Part shown: positions 14,235-62,867 of the stretch, piece after piece
Layout of the letters: every line of letters begins with the position of its first letter
Numbering within the stretch: the stretch's first letter is position 1
Assembly: GCF_020342435.1 (NCBI RefSeq)
Contig: NZ_CP080504.1
Location: 1-64,000, forward strand
Source: Candidatus Vallotiella sp. (ex Adelges kitamiensis)
Lineage (GTDB): Bacteria; Pseudomonadota; Gammaproteobacteria; Burkholderiales; Burkholderiaceae
Direction of reading: 5' to 3'
Length of the DNA: 64,000 nucleotides
Translations under genes and position numbers: made by a program
Notes under the pieces: model-generated
Databases searched by the model: none
Told to the model about the DNA's origin: nothing
Seen by the model: only the letters and a program-made list of their open reading frames with translations

Positions 14235-14980
14235 CTTGTATGAAGTATACTAGATATTGAATAGTGAAACTTTATCGCCTAGTACTTGATATTTAGAGTT
14301 TCTCTAAGCGTTAAAAGCATCGAAAATAATAATATACACATGTATTGACTGTGATAAATACACTGTAAAAACGATGAAATGCCTCGAAGACTGCTACCAG
14401 CATACTGCCTAGTACGTAACATATATCTCTACTATAAAAAGATGATAAGTTTTTACTATAGAGAGTAGATAACTACTACTAGACGGCCCGATAGGGCGCG
14501 CTCTAAAAATATAGCAATATCAAGACTAGCCTATCTTAATTTTAGTAAAATTAAATAAGCTTAAGATACTAATGCACTGCATGATACTGCATCTATACTC
14601 TAATCTTCTCATTGCTTTGTGTTTGTAAGTTTTATTTTGTATAAAAAGTTTATTATCATGCGGGGAATATTATATAGGGGTAAGTGGCGGGCGCGGCAGT
14701 TTTCCTGACATCTAAAATTATAGATGCAAAAACGCTTTAAATAAAAGATACAAGACTATCTAAATTTCGTCCTCTCTATCTTGTTTGGGCAAGAATTTTG
14801 TTGCTTGTGTGAGTAATATTTTAGGTATTTCAAGAGGGAATATAAATCTAGCTATTCCGGGATAGGCGCATTAAGCTACCTTTATCAGCTATTGATAGAA
14901 CATACCTGCCTATGCGCGATTGATAAAATGCGTTGATCTAAATACGCATTGTGCAGCTGTGTTCTTATCCGTGGAGTTTC
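14235..14980. other. Long AT-rich spacer before recQ, no gene recognised
   Basis: About 750 bases with frequent stops in all frames and no protein-like segment that I can recognise on either strand. Composition is clearly more AT-rich than the genes on either side. It is best read as eroded DNA. The recQ promoter should be near its end, but I see no convincing -35/-10 pair. Confidence 0.6.
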
Positions 14981-16582
14981 ATGTCCCACTGTCTTACTTT
15001 ACTCAAAAAAGTTTTCGGATATCCTGCGTTTCGCGGTTCGCAAGCTGATATCATCGAACATGTTGCAGCGGGACACGATAGCCTCGTGCTAATGCCAACT
15101 GGGGGCGGTAAGTCTTTATGCTATCAAATTCCAGCGCTGATACGCCATAATGCCGGCCTGGGCGCTAGTATCGTAGTATCGCCGTTGATCGCATTGATGC
15201 AGGATCAAGTTGCGGCATTAACTAAAGCAGGAGTACGGGCAGCATACCTAAACTCCTCACTTACCTTAGCTGAGGTAGTTATAGCCGAGCGTGCATTTGT
15301 ACGTGCTGAGTTGCAATTATTGTATATTGCACCAGAGCGACTAATGACATCGCGGTTTCTAGAGCTACTGACAAGAAGCCGAATAGGGTTGTTTGCGATC
15401 GACGAAGCCCACTGTGTGTCTCAGTGGGGTCATGATTTCCGGTGCGAATACATGCGTCTATGTGCGTTGCATAAGCGTTTCCCGAGGGTACCTCGTATCG
15501 CTTTAACTGCGACAGCAGACACACTTACGCGAGAAGAAATAATCGAGAGGCTTGCACTACACCATGCTCGAGTATTTATTTCGAGCATTAATCGACCGAA
15601 CATTCGTTATCGAATCATTGAAAAAAATAACGCGCGTGCGCAATTACTGGATTTTATCCAGGCTGAACATACTAAGATAGATGGCACTACCGATACAGGC
15701 ATTGTTTATTGCCTATCGAGACGGAAAGTTGAGGAAACAGCCAACTGGCTTGTACGACAAGGGTTACGTGCGTTGCCATATCACGCCGGTATGGATGCGC
15801 GGCTTCGCCTGAAAAATCAACAGGTTTTCCAACACGAGGAAAGCGTTGTAATATGTGCAACAATTGCATTTGGAATGGGAATTGATAAACCCAACGTGCG
15901 CTTTGTCGCACATTTAGATCTGCCTAAGAGCATTGAAGGCTACTATCAAGAAACCGGTCGGGCAGGCCGAGATAACCACGCATCTAATGCGTGGATGGTT
16001 TACGGACTAGGTGATGTTATGCAACAGCGTAGGATGATTAGAGAATCTACGGCTAATGAGTTGTATAAAAGAGTGCAAACAGCGAAGCTTGAGGCATTGC
16101 TTGGATTATGCGAAACAGCTAAATGTCGGCGCGTGCAGCTACTCAGCTATTTTGGAGAAACAGGCCAGCCATGTGGCAACTGTGATATATGTCTAGATCC
16201 GCCAGCAACCTATGATGGTACACGTGAGGCACAGATGGCGCTCTCGTGTGTATACCGTGCGAAACGAGCTAGTGGCTTTGGGTTTGGCGAGAGTCACCTG
16301 ACTGACATATTATGCGGTAATAAAACTAAGCGTGTTAAGAGATGGGGGCATGACACCTTAAGTACTTTCAGTATTGGTGCATCATTGCCGGCGGAGCAAT
16401 GGCGATCTATTTTTCGTCAATTAATTGCGCTGGGCTTGCTTTCTATCGATCACGGAGGTCACGGCATACTAGTCCTTACAGAATTAAGTAAATCTGTGTT
16501 GAAAGGGGAGCGTAATATTACGCTGCGCCAATACAGCAAATTTAAACGGGATACGCAAGGCGGATGGCACACATTATGGTAA
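14981..16582 (+). CDS. recQ: ATP-dependent DNA helicase RecQ, lacking the HRDC domain
   Basis: RecQ is a 3'-5' helicase of recombination and fork repair. The ATG at 14981 ([19 protein letters not shown]) gives 533 residues; the frame is open ten codons further upstream. Seen are Walker [14 protein letters not shown] (about 41-53), DEAHC, LTATAD, the QETGRAGRD motif, and the RQC zinc cysteines ([12 protein letters not shown]...CGNCDIC, about 380-405) plus a winged-helix region. Relatives are about 610 residues with a C-terminal HRDC domain. Here translation stops right after RQC, and a frame-shifted HRDC remnant may lie downstream. The catalytic core looks intact, so residual helicase activity is likely. 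Confidence 0.92.
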
Positions 16583-57854: not shown

Positions 57855-58255
57855 TGAATAGCAAAAATTGGTTAGATAAAGTAAAGTGGGATGCAAATGG
57901 CTTAGTTCCCGTAATTGTCCAGCAAGAGCTAAGTAATGATGTATTAATGTTTGCATGGATGAACCGCGAAGCATTGCTCAAAACGCTTGAGCTAGAGCGC
58001 GCTGTTTACTTTTCTCGTTCGCGTAACAAGCTATGGTTCAAGGGTGAAGTGTCTGGCCATTTACAGTACGTACGTGAAGTACGGCTTGACTGCGATCAAG
58101 ATGTTGTTCTATTAAAGATAGAACAGATATCTAATATTGCCTGCCATACTGGTCGGCATTCGTGTTTTTTTTGGAAATTTAAAGGCTCTCTAGACAGGGG
58201 TAACTGGGTATCAGTTGATCCCGTATTGAAAGATCCAGAGAACATTTATCTATGA
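57854..58255 (+). CDS. hisI: Phosphoribosyl-AMP cyclohydrolase
   Basis: HisI opens the adenine ring of PR-AMP. It has 133 residues, with [18 protein letters not shown] (about residues 29-46), the metal-binding [14 protein letters not shown] (about 79-92) and [10 protein letters not shown] (about 97-106) cysteines. It is a stand-alone enzyme, with hisE a separate gene overlapping by four bases. A run of eight T (58165-58172) lies in the cysteine motif region. Confidence 0.97.
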
Positions 58256-58641
58256 CTTATCATACTCAACCTACATTAGATAGGACGTCTAGTGGTTTGC
58301 AGGATAACCATACCCAACTTGACGTTTTGATGCGACTTGCAGCAACGATTGACAGTCGCAAGACAGGCGATCCCAAGGCTTCTTATGTTGCACAACTTTT
58401 TCATAAGGGCGCCAATGCAATTCTGAAAAAAGTTGGCGAAGAAGCTATTGAAGTCGTGATGGCAGCAAAAGATGCTTGCTTTAATAATTCGAGTGTAACG
58501 CTGGTGAATGAGGTAGCCGATCTATGGTTCCATTGTCTTGTAATGCTATCGTATTATGGTGTTGGGCTCCATGATGTTCTAACTGAGTTACAATGTCGCG
58601 AAGGCTTATCGGGCATTGAAGAAAAAGCTTTGCGTAAGTGA
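58252..58641 (+). CDS. hisE: Phosphoribosyl-ATP pyrophosphatase
   Basis: HisE hydrolyses PR-ATP to PR-AMP. It has 129 residues; the MazG-like core begins about residue 24. The family motif [18 protein letters not shown] (about 58-75) and [14 protein letters not shown] (about 84-97) carry the acidic metal ligands. The first 20 residues are variable in the family. The ATG overlaps the hisI stop (ATGA). It is the last surviving gene of the his operon. Confidence 0.96.
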
Positions 58642-59119
58642 GGAGCGGTATTGTGAAACTCCCTGCGGTCAGAGAGTTCCATTACGTTACATTTTATAAA
58701 AAATACCGTAGTTTAGATAAACTATAAGTCTGAGTTGAGCTGGTTGTGTAAGAGAAAGCACTCATTGCTTAGACTTTATTATGATAAAGTCTTCAAAGCA
58801 TATAGTGTGATATAAAGCTCTTAAGTATCGTTTATAGTTTATTCCTATAAATCCAGATCTAGCGATAATAAAATCGTAAAGAGATTTTACTATACGTGAC
58901 TGTTAGAGCATCTAAAATCTATCTCACAGAGATCCTATGGGATCTCTTCTATTAATTTATTTTTGAGAGGCTATCGACTACTACTATATAAATTAATATT
59001 ATTAGTGACTTAATCGATGATTAAAAAAATGGTAATTATAGCCAGTTGTAGCTTTATTTAAAAGATGATTAGCATAACTTATCACTAATTATGCTCAATA
59101 TAAATTTGTCTAATCTTTG
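58642..59119. other. Spacer after hisE (expected tatABC position) with a hairpin at 58928-58947
   Basis: In Burkholderia hisE is followed by a HIT-family gene and tatA-tatB-tatC. I see no recognisable part of these in the 478 bases. AGAGATCC (58928-58935) pairs perfectly with GGATCTCT (58940-58947) around a TATG loop and is followed by TCTATTAATTTATTTTT. This would serve as the terminator of the his transcript or is a leftover from a deleted gene. Confidence 0.5.
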
Positions 59120-60294
59120 CTAGGGTAGAGGTAAGCGCCTGCTAATCTTTACGTTGATGTCTATTTCGCAAGATCTGTGCCGCAAATGTACTTTGGCAAC
59201 CGCACCCGTCTTAATTAGAGTGATTACGTTAATTACTTGCTGTATCTGAAATATTTTCATCGCTGACTTTCATAAGAATATCGCCTAGTTTGATTACTAG
59301 CTTTATCCGCCCGCCAGCCCACCAGGTAACATTCTTAAACAATCACGCCAGATTTTTGCCTCAAACTAAATAATTTAGTTATTTCCGGCCTCACTTTCTT
59401 AAGTTCGACCCCGATCCAGCCCCGCATTACTGCCCCCGTTTTGATGATACCATCAAGCACACTGTAGGCTGTCGATACTAGACTAGCAAAACCTATTCCT
59501 AGCGAGCCGCTGCTACGAGAATAAATGCGGTATTAATTCCAAGCAAGTGACTATTTATATCAACTAATACGCCTCCAGAATTTCTCTAGATTAATCAATG
59601 TATTAGTTTAAATAAAGTTTTAGAATGTGTTAATCCTTGAATGATTACCCCCGAGTGCGTTGATAATATGCATTGTAACTGTTTGAAGACTCTAAACGGA
59701 TTTCCAATTGCTAGAACAGGTTGCCCACGCGTGTATTTTCATCCGTATAAGCGTAATTTTAGGCAAATTAGATAGAGAAATCTTAAGGACTGCTAAATCT
59801 GTTTCTGGATCTACTCCAATAATTTTAGCATTTGCTATACGTCTATCGGAAAAGGAAACTTTGATTTTATCGGTGTCATCTACTACGCGCTGGTTTGTTA
59901 AAATATAGTCTTCCGAACTTAGAATAACTCCGGAACTAAGATTATCTGCTAGCTCCTGATGTTTGTTCTCATAATTATCTTCCTCGAAGATAATAGCGAA
60001 ATAATTGGTTATTAGGGCGCTGCCCTAACATCTAAGAACTATCTTTTCTAGTAAATATATTGACTACAGCAAGTAATGCACGCTAGGCAGTGTCTGAATA
60101 TGATGTAACTAGTTGTCCGCAGCTGCAATACTTGGGGCAACTTTCTATCGCGTGACGATTATGGACGTTAGATATTGCCTAAGGTTACTTTCTTCGAGCG
60201 GCAGCCAGTTCGGCTTTAGAGTCGATACAATAAACACAAACGCAAGCAGTACCGTTACCGCTTGCGTAAAAAATAGCTAAAAGCGTCTTAGCAT
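59120..60294 (-). pseudogene. degQ: Decayed DegQ/HtrA-type periplasmic serine protease
   Basis: Reading the minus strand from an ATG at 60294 gives MLRRF, then TAG where relatives have Trp, then LFFTQAVTVLLAFVFIVSTL and KPNWLP, an HtrA-type membrane anchor. About 120 codons on, GVILSSEDYILTNQRVVDD matches the catalytic-histidine motif (GVIVSxxGYILTNxHVVD), but His is Arg. DPETDLAVLKI follows. Later pieces in shifting frames are QTVTMHIINALGGNH, SGGVLVDINSHLLGINTA (the catalytic-serine region), GSLGIGFASLVSTAYSVLDG, RGWIGVE and, just before the TAG at 59120, SRRLPLP. There are several stops and frameshifts but little net loss of length (about 390 codons). It is certainly non-functional. Confidence 0.9.
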
Positions 60295-62255
60295 TAGGGC
60301 TTATAGAGCTAGCATAGAAAAAATACTTTGGATTTGAAAGGGTTTGTAGAAACTTCCTATTCCTATAGCTATTGCTCTAAATCCCTACAGTTCGCAAGTT
60401 TAATATCTGCTGTCAGATGGAGAAAAACTTTGTAAGCATTACTGCTTATGCCCTACTTTTCGAGAGAGTGATCGATTATGAAATTAACATAGTAGACTCG
60501 TGCCTTTTACCTCTTTCTCCTAGAAAGAGGTAATAAAACTATGAGACTAGAAATATAGGTAGGTGAGTGCTTTAATCCAGAATAATGTTAACTTGTTAAC
60601 CTATTAATTGACACTAATAGATAATTATTTAGAGTTGAGGCATGATATGCGTCCTTTAGTACGACACTAAATTAGCTAGTACGACATAGAAAGACACTAT
60701 GTCAATATGATCTAGATTGCTAAGATCTATTTTTGGAGTAGAGTATTTTATCTTTTATCTTATTACCTACTTAGTAGTGGAGGTAGGTTTGTATATATAT
60801 GGACTCATCGCTATGTCTTGAGCATTATGTTATGTAACTCCGTAGAGCTAATAGGAGCGATATCTTTAGAGATTATCTGTATTTGATAGCTAAAAGCTAA
60901 CTAAATTAAGCTATATTAATATCCTAACTAAAAATCGGTATTAAATCAGATAGGAACAGTAGTGAAGCATGTTAAGTATACACGATGCATTAATAGTATC
61001 AAACGCTAGAGTCATATGTAGCGTACGCATAAATTTCGCGCAACGTCTATTTTGATCCCTATTAAGTACAAACAAGATACAGTGTCGCGCTGTACGAATT
61101 TATGCTGCTCAACCCTGATATAGAAGAATTTTACAAGACGAGCTGTAGTCTAAGTTTGCCTATAAAACGATTTTATCCACTATAGGTGCTTGCCTGAAGA
61201 CGGGATCTCCTCAGATTATATTATCTATTTGCTTAAAACTATCTTTGGTTGTCCGAAGCAACTATGTCAATATCAATGTTACATTGAGCTATTTTTTATG
61301 TTTAAAGTGATAAAAATCTGCTAGATAGCACTTGATTCAAGCTTCGTATTGATCAAATTTATATGCTTTTTTATTTAGTTTAATGCGATTGTGTTCTTTA
61401 AAAGCAACGCGTATACATAATACGCGAGAGATGCTAATCGAAAGTATACTAGTCTAAGAAATACGACCATATTCCACTCAATCTGGCATGGAATACTAAG
61501 TCTTTGTAGGCTATTTATAGTGATACTGCTCGAATTAATCAGCTCAATCACAGCCTGTACTGAGCCAAAATTAGCTAGTTACGCCTCCTGCTAGTGTCCT
61601 CTCAATAATTAGCGTTAAACTCAAGTACTAGCGCATTGTTATTATAGTGGTATTTTTACCTGTGTTTTATAGGGTAACGTAATCTACGTCTAGACAAGTT
61701 TATTCTTCATCATCTATATTTTTTTATTAATTCTTCTATGAGATCTTTATGGTTCTCTCTTTATTGTTTTCTTCCAGATACCACCCTTTCTCATCACTCG
61801 GCCTATATCTTTAGCTATAAGTGTAATCGCGTAGACTTACTAATACATTTAAATTTTTCCTAAAACTGCTAACCTTCTTTAGCCTACACTTATTTTCTTA
61901 TTCTTATAAGTGCGTAACTTTCAAACGAAATTTTATATTCATGAACGATTACATTCCTAATACACACGAGTAGTGGAGCGTGTTGCGCTGTTCATGGCAT
62001 CAGATGTGGAATTTATCAAAAATAATGATGAAAGCATTAAGGTAACTTACACATTAAATGGTTTTACCAAGATGATGATTAGAAAATCTTCTCAATAAAC
62101 TATGATGCGCTTGTTTCTTAAAAAGCTGGCCCTATGCGCCAGGAAACCTGCGTACTGATTTAAGAAAACACGCGATTAGCGTGTTTAGACTGGATAGTAA
62201 ACAAGAGCGGCGCGACTTTTTCTATCTAGTTCTTTAGTTTTTTAAGGAAAGTAAA
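60295..62255. other. Two-kilobase eroded region (expected petABC position) with hairpins
   Basis: Burkholderia has petA-petB-petC (cytochrome bc1) between this degQ locus and sspA. I could not recognise Rieske CTHLGC/CPCHG, cytochrome b or c1 CxxCH motifs in any frame. The DNA is very AT-rich with dense stops. Two perfect hairpins stand out: ACCTCTTTCT/AGAAAGAGGT with a CCT loop (60509-60531) and AAACACGC/GCGTGTTT with a GATTA loop (62166-62186). The second lies 70 bases before sspA and may be an old terminator or part of its leader. Confidence 0.55.
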
Positions 62256-62867
62256 ATGATGGTTTTGTATTCCGGCACTACCTGCCCATTCTCCCAGCGT
62301 TGCCGGTTAGTGCTGTTCGAAAAGGGCATGGATTTTGAGATCCGTGATGTTGATCTGTTTAAAAAACCGGCGGATATATTAGTAATGAATCCGTATGAAC
62401 AGGTACCAATTTTAGTGGAGCGCGACCTAATCCTATACGAGTCAAACATCATTAATGAGTATATCGACGAGCGCTTCCCTCATCCACAATTAATGCCTGC
62501 TGATCCAGTTCAGCGTGCCCGTGCACGCCTATTCCTTCTCAATTTTGAGAAAGAGTTATTCGTACACGTTAACGCGCTCGAGCACGAAAAAAGAAAGATA
62601 GCTGAGAAAGTATATGAACGCGCGCGCGTAAAGATTCGCGATCGGTTGACACAACTCACGCCGATTTTCGTTAAGAATAAGTATATGTTGGGAGAGGATT
62701 TCTCGATGCTCGACGTCGCGATTGCACCATTATTGTGGCGCCTAGATCATTATGGTATCGAACTATCTAAAAATGCGGCGCCACTTATGAAATATGCAGA
62801 ACGCATTTTTAGCCGGCCTGCCTATATTGAAGCGTTGACGCCATCTGAAAAAATTATGCGTCGTTAA
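62256..62867 (+). CDS. sspA: Stringent starvation protein A
   Basis: SspA is a glutathione-transferase-fold protein that binds RNA polymerase holoenzyme and adjusts transcription during starvation. The 203-residue protein begins MMVLYSGTTCPFSQRCRLVL and contains NPYEQVPILVERDLILYESN (about residues 46-65) and the conserved LLWRLDHYGIELSKNAAPLM (about 161-180). It lacks GST catalytic activity in known members. TTAAGGAAAG precedes the tandem ATGs. It is remarkably well conserved despite decayed surroundings and is cotranscribed with sspB. Confidence 0.96.
   Translation: MMVLYSGTTCPFSQRCRLVLFEKGMDFEIRDVDLFKKPADILVMNPYEQVPILVERDLILYESNIINEYIDERFPHPQLMPADPVQRARARLFLLNFEKELFVHVNALEHEKRKIAEKVYERARVKIRDRLTQLTPIFVKNKYMLGEDFSMLDVAIAPLLWRLDHYGIELSKNAAPLMKYAERIFSRPAYIEALTPSEKIMRR

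Follow-up and report, generated by a model that had tools for sequence, protein, structure and literature searches.

AlgW of Pseudomonas aeruginosa, a membrane-bound protease, has a PDZ domain and takes part in regulated intramembrane proteolysis; it senses misfolded outer-membrane proteins and starts the cleavage of an anti-sigma factor (PMC8545111). The same sensing and initiating activity is described for DegS of Escherichia coli, which has a single PDZ domain (PMC8263021). One E. coli strain cannot do without rpoE, degS and rseP, but in two ST131 strains these genes are not essential (PMC11481867); the relay is thus dispensable in some backgrounds. Bordetella has RseA-RpoE without a DegS homologue, and thus the partners of the relay can come apart in Betaproteobacteria (PMC8263021).

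Here we analyse a gene of this kind in the window, i.e. the whole stretch of 64,000 nucleotides from Candidatus Vallotiella sp. (ex Adelges kitamiensis), which opens contig 1 of a genome of 1,172,651 bases in 2 contigs (G000). The genus sample comprised eight genomes, four of 1.1-1.2 Mb (G000, G002, G004 and G005) and four of 3.3-3.8 Mb (G001, G003, G006 and G007). Young insect symbionts generally carry pseudogenes. A comparable case is Candidatus Vallotia tarda, with 47 chromosomal pseudogenes defined by truncation, stops or frameshifts (PMC8692619). The main text of that paper contains neither "degQ" nor "protease", that of PMC8857208 neither "sigma" nor "protease", and a literature search for Vallotia together with a sigma factor returned no paper.

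Family identity of the protease

Domain and equivalog tests were performed on three intact copies (G003, G004 and G005). All three match the Trypsin_2 domain, have a single PDZ domain (one overlapping PDZ stretch) and carry His-Asp-Ser triad motifs at what we take to be the catalytic positions. Their N-termini are hydrophobic as judged by eye, and a single-sequence model of the G004 protein, otherwise poor (mean pLDDT 38), contains a confident helix near residues 2-37.

Among solved structures (best 60 of 99 matches), AlgW of P. aeruginosa came first for the G004 protein (PDB 7co2, 7co3, 7co5 and 7co7; E 9.8e-103), with residues 57-389 matching a chain of 389 residues, followed by a DegP-like chain (1.4e-83), DegQ (7.1e-75) and DegS (1.4e-64). 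In an unrooted HtrA tree of 14 sequences, in which the DegS branch is very long and the E. coli DegS sequence is without its last residues, the locus family clusters with DegS of E. coli (92%), apart from DegP, DegQ, MucD and a third HtrA. The intact copies miss the cut-off of the DegS equivalog model (TIGR02038; 316, 324 and 307 bits versus 422.95). Against the subfamily model for Do family serine endopeptidases (TIGR02037, cut-off 416.2), the G003 copy scores above (427 bits), those of G004 (413) and G005 (407) just under.

The first-pass annotation had named the gene degQ. DegQ of E. coli also belongs to the HtrA family, and the protease and first PDZ region of its model are covered by our copies. 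However, DegQ of E. coli has two PDZ domains and is annotated as periplasmic, and the intact copies with their one PDZ domain fall far below the DegQ equivalog cut-off (NF007526; 318, 298 and 312 bits versus 756). Given also the tree position and the best solved relative, DegQ was rejected as the name of the orthologue. On these grounds the gene is an AlgW/DegS-type, single-PDZ HtrA protease with a putative membrane anchor. What distinguishes the locus from AlgW is that the window copy is dead, and that in those sisters whose own copy is intact, RseA, RseB and RseP were not found in intact form (see below).

Decay of the gene copy in the window

Intact relative proteins were aligned to the minus strand by a three-frame Viterbi procedure (FASTY-like, own script), and the gene was further compared with five intact genes in a DNA alignment. 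The gene copy and its landmarks are as follows:

59108..60294, minus strand: AlgW/DegS-type (HtrA, one PDZ) serine protease pseudogene, full length, by frame-tolerant alignment to the G003, G004 and G005 proteins
60277..60279, minus strand: codon 6, TAG; Trp in G001, G003, G005 and G007, Cys in G004
59887..59889, minus strand: catalytic His codon, now CGC (Arg); CAC or CAT in the intact copies (DNA alignment)
59797..59799, minus strand: catalytic Asp codon GAT, unchanged (DNA alignment)
59577..59579, minus strand: catalytic Ser codon TCT, unchanged but shifted in frame, just past an insertion and a TAG (both alignments)
59120..59122, minus strand: TAG earlier read as the gene end; aligns with Lys 390 of G003, with homology on to about 59108

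With the G003 protein as query, residues 1-394 are covered over 60294-59108 (254/394 identical, score 1074); the G004 and G005 proteins gave 254/389 identities (score 1088) and 237/393 identities (score 979), respectively. Controls with the G005 protein scored 33-49 (eight shuffles), 40 (other strand) and 34 (reversed sequence), and six shuffles with the G003 protein reached at most 40. Independently, a whole-genome search with the Pfam Trypsin_2 model landed on 59743-59934 (E 5e-11). The frameshift-tolerant translated search thus matched HtrA relatives along the full length, in agreement with the first-pass annotation of a full-length HtrA-family pseudogene.

Eight in-frame stops are present relative to each of the three reference proteins. 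Six of them, at 60277, 60083, 60032, 59620, 59608 and 59586, do not depend on the reference, the last one coinciding with a frameshift. Frame-tolerant alignment yielded 13 frameshifts against G003, 13 against G004 and 12 against G005, and frameshifts separate the catalytic Asp and Ser codons. The DNA alignment contains 12 indel runs private to the window copy, with 9 bases in and 10 out. Eleven of these are internal, net +2 (eight of 1 base, two of 2 and one of 4). The remaining run, of 3 bases at 59120, is probably an alignment end effect. Most details of the initial reading were confirmed here: a stop in place of Trp at codon 6 (Trp in four of five intact relatives), the exchange of the catalytic His for Arg, a frame-shifted serine region, several further stops, and decay through substitutions and small indels at almost unchanged length. 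Its gene end, a stop directly after SRRLPLP, is probably not the native one. Relatives can still be aligned over a few codons beyond the TAG at 59120, so that this codon is probably one more nonsense mutation (Lys to stop).

The lesions were read from the assembled sequence, and frame errors probably occur in the collection: in G003, rpoB is divided between two frames (G003:C2:940986-945096), probably by an assembly error. In principle, a live gene could look broken through errors of sequencing or assembly, an explanation that we regard as scarcely credible. The flanking genes in the same contig are open, and the same gene is broken differently in G002. Moreover, five intact relatives have 249 invariant residues in common; the window copy is legible at 241 of them and changed at 52 of these 241, and its GC content is 0.397 versus 0.446 and 0.472 in the intact sisters; scattered read errors would not produce such changes. 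For residues invariant in G001, G003, G007 and G005, 81 of 281 legible ones are changed in the window copy, compared to 40 of the same 281 in the intact G004 copy.

A truncated but still functional product is also very improbable. An example would be the stretch 59692-60024 (minus strand, 110 aa between stops), which is open and includes the conserved region around the catalytic His and Asp. It ends, however, ahead of the catalytic Ser and the PDZ domain, its catalytic His is an Arg, and two intact sisters make the whole protein. The window copy is homologous to the intact relatives, disrupted and deprived of conserved residues, and intact orthologues occupy the same site elsewhere. We conclude that it is a pseudogene: its codon 6 is a stop, it has more stops as well as small frameshifts, its catalytic His has been replaced, and it now makes no protease.

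The locus and its neighbours

The order of the locus in G003 is hisF, hisI, hisE, tatA, tatB, tatC, the protease gene (on the opposite strand), nif3, petA, petB, petC, sspA and sspB; these names were given by eye, and Pfam confirms only TatC and cytochrome b. Spacer remnants were accepted when they scored above the shuffle maximum plus 12 (6 shuffles each). Around the pseudogene, the window contains:

58252..58641, plus strand: hisE, intact, left anchor; above the cut-off of the NCBIfam phosphoribosyl-ATP diphosphatase model
58642..59107, no strand assigned: place of tatABC (order from G003), no legible remnant; no match above threshold in G000
60328..60637, plus strand: nif3-like remnant; 39/99 identities, score 113 versus 39 for 6 shuffles
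61361..61925, plus strand: petB (cytochrome b) remnant; 63/184 identities, 7 stops, 9 frameshifts, score 82 versus 53
61990..62118, plus strand: petC remnant, faint and weak; 14/44 identities, score 59 versus 43 for 6 shuffles
62256..62867, plus strand: sspA, intact, right anchor; NCBIfam SspA model is the best match, under its cut-off; 92% identical to relatives

The tat and pet loci had been described as unreadable. This stands for tat, as neither TatA, TatB nor TatC gave an above-threshold match in the G000 spacer, but not for the other side, where remnants of nif3, petB and, weakly, petC become legible with the help of relatives. No TatC match and no Cytochrome_B match was obtained in any of the four reduced genomes, whereas both were found in all four larger genomes of the genus; searches for TatA, TatB, PetA and PetC covered the spacers. 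A decayed petB is present in the spacers of all four reduced genomes. The sole trace of tat is a faint TatA match in the G002 spacer (57 versus 40 for 6 shuffles), and nif3 is weakly detectable in that of G004 (58 versus 44 for 6 shuffles).

Two observations were made beside the main subject. The sspA gene of G005 (L098 3200-3988) encodes a longer product of 262 aa. Two overlapping parts of the query, residues 1-128 and 111-203, each match its frame, which looks like the result of an internal duplication or insert. Elsewhere in the window, at 14951-16582, a RecQ-like helicase gene is intact in G000, as it is in two larger relatives; the examined stretches of G002, G004 and G005 gave no match spanning 75% of its length.

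Intact and broken copies in the sister genomes

The protease site between hisE and sspA is common to all four reduced genomes. In G004 and G005 an intact gene encodes 392 and 395 aa, respectively; that of G002 is broken and has lost part of its length, with only residues 137-388 legible (aligned to the G004 protein). The intact protease of G004 and G005 lies beside tat and pet blocks that are dead, so that it was still alive after these neighbours had died. The sister genomes thereby uphold the view, already taken in the first-pass annotation, that the protease gene would have died later than its tat and pet neighbours.

Phylogenetic analysis of 21 genes (27 were tried and six skipped for missing or short matches; each was present in 5 to 7 of 7 genomes) gave the topology ((G000,(G002,G004)),G005). 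The internal branch uniting G002 and G004 is short, and its UFBoot support is 94 for amino acids, 99 for codon positions 1+2 and 100 for all nucleotides of the same genes. A 7-gene tree again united G002 and G004, with support of 81 (amino acids) and 98. On this topology the two broken copies would not trace back to one event. The alternative is that G000 and G002 inherited one and the same loss from a shared ancestor, and that G004 is misplaced as the sister of G002. For a grouping of G000 with G002, the AU test gave p values of 0.034, 0.0058 and 0.0005 under the same three treatments, whereas the SH test does not reject it (p 0.29, 0.23 and 0.21). A single loss would also fit a small M50 protease with the same pattern (see below), and G002 has, like G000, an Arg codon at the column of the catalytic His, although the G002 sequence to the left of this column cannot be aligned. 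Not a single indel column in the DNA alignment is, on the other hand, common to G000 and G002 alone. Taking these points together with the UFBoot values, we consider a single loss unlikely. Independent losses in G000 and G002 are favoured, but not proven.

For a comparison of codon positions we used 319 codons; frameshift-adjacent codons and residues 30-62 of G004 (a poorly aligned linker) were left out, as was the whole of G002. Branch lengths at positions 1+2, for the protease versus functional genes, were 0.211 versus 0.057 in G000, 0.056 versus 0.072 in G004 and 0.107 versus 0.070 in G005. The ratio of positions 1+2 to position 3 for the protease was 0.37 in G000, 0.21 in G004 and 0.15 in G005 (functional genes: 0.21, 0.19 and 0.12), with overlapping bootstrap ranges for G000 (0.21-0.62) and the intact G004 copy (0.08-0.55). 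Open frames, a triad that is conserved and codon-position ratios close to the functional-gene values suggest that the protease works in G004 and G005. A codon-position estimator gave a relaxed fraction of 0.19 for the G000 branch (95% range -0.60 to 0.51, 40 bootstraps); as this range includes zero, it provides no finer date for the death of the gene within that branch.

The sigma-E relay

In G003, rpoE, rseA, rseB, mucD and lepA form one gene run (RseA named by Pfam, the others by eye). The reduced genomes keep mucD intact in all four cases, and rpoE is intact in G002, G004 and G005; the two of these that were tried, G002 and G005, pass the RpoE equivalog model. The rpoE gene of G000 is broken by one stop and four frameshifts (G000:C1, L118 6490-8646, minus-strand operon).

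The RseA_N HMM, which may miss a diverged RseA, found no match in the four reduced genomes and a match in each of the four larger genomes of the genus. Accepting relay remnants at 8 above the shuffle maximum, we detected broken rseA in G000 and, weakly, in G002 (74 versus 51, 6 shuffles), and broken rseB in all four reduced genomes. The loss of RseA in G004 and G005 is suggested by the missing HMM match, by the lack of an above-threshold local match and by the dead rseB. No intact RseP copy was found in the four reduced genomes; its one remnant, with 11 stops, is in G005.

In G002, G004 and G005 rpoE is kept, and no intact rseA or rseB was found. Sigma-E in these three genomes seems to be without an anti-sigma factor, and the AlgW-type protease apparently outlived RseA, its canonical anti-sigma substrate. 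The idea of a protease kept solely for RseA was discarded, as G004 and G005 retain the protease although RseA_N matches nothing there and neither RseB nor RseP was found intact.

Next to a gene taken for trpS lies the gene of a small M50 (site-2-type) protease that is not RseP. G004 and G005 have it intact, and it has become a pseudogene in G000 (L133 4922-5554, 120/210 identities) and G002 (L134 5210-5715, 95/164). It has thus been lost in the same two genomes as the AlgW-type protease, a lead that comes from two events among four genomes and from a few stretches per genome. The AlgW-type protease (site 1) and this M50 protease (site 2) might have been a working pair without RseA, kept together in G004 and G005 after RseA, RseB and RseP had gone and lost together, independently, in G000 and G002. 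Three of the four genomes would then have a sigma-E that runs with no anti-sigma factor. We mention this as a speculation that will probably turn out to be wrong.

Distribution in other genomes

The protease gene is present in full length at 62 of 80 sspA loci, always on the minus strand relative to sspA. At the remaining loci we found split, partial or one-stop matches (5 loci) or no match (13 loci); seven of the latter are shortened loci, and six have a full 10-kb flank (L003, L050, L051, L054, L057 and L071).

Among 17 further genomes of the family, 14 have a protease match (E at most 1e-30) and nine an RseA_N match. Five of the 17 have the protease with no RseA_N match (G008, G014, G016, G018, where the gene contains one TAA, and G024), and three very small genomes (G010, G012 and G020) match neither. 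These counts agree with the protease outliving RseA; alternatively, RseA_N may miss diverged RseA proteins.

Proposed history and significance

We consider it highly probable that the window contains the pseudogene of an AlgW/DegS-type protease which was lost late, separately in G000 and G002, and after tat, pet, rseA, rseB and rseP. Judging from its family, the ancestral protease would have sensed misfolded outer-membrane proteins through its PDZ domain and cut RseA, whereupon RseP would have released sigma-E. By parsimony on the four reduced genomes, tat, pet, rseA, rseB and rseP would be the first genes to have died in the lineage; a single death of each in the ancestor is the most parsimonious reading, though they may have died in parallel. 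The protease would then have stayed in use for a while, probably in general envelope quality control: it is open and looks constrained in G004 and G005, where neither its canonical target nor the next protease was found intact, which makes another use probable. Later it would have been lost separately in G000 and G002, presumably because its intact relative MucD could cover for it. With the death of rpoE in G000, the whole relay would be gone there.

As a pseudogene in a shrinking symbiont, the locus is a case of ordinary genome decay. Of specialist interest are the repeated loss and a protease that apparently survived RseA. At one and the same site, the genus offers a natural series from an intact gene via a broken full-length copy to one that is broken and partly deleted, next to neighbours that died earlier. 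The sigma-E envelope-stress relay appears to have been dismantled stepwise, and its anti-sigma factor apparently was survived by both the sensing protease and the sigma factor. If this is true, the role of AlgW/DegS-type proteases without RseA would become testable by comparison.
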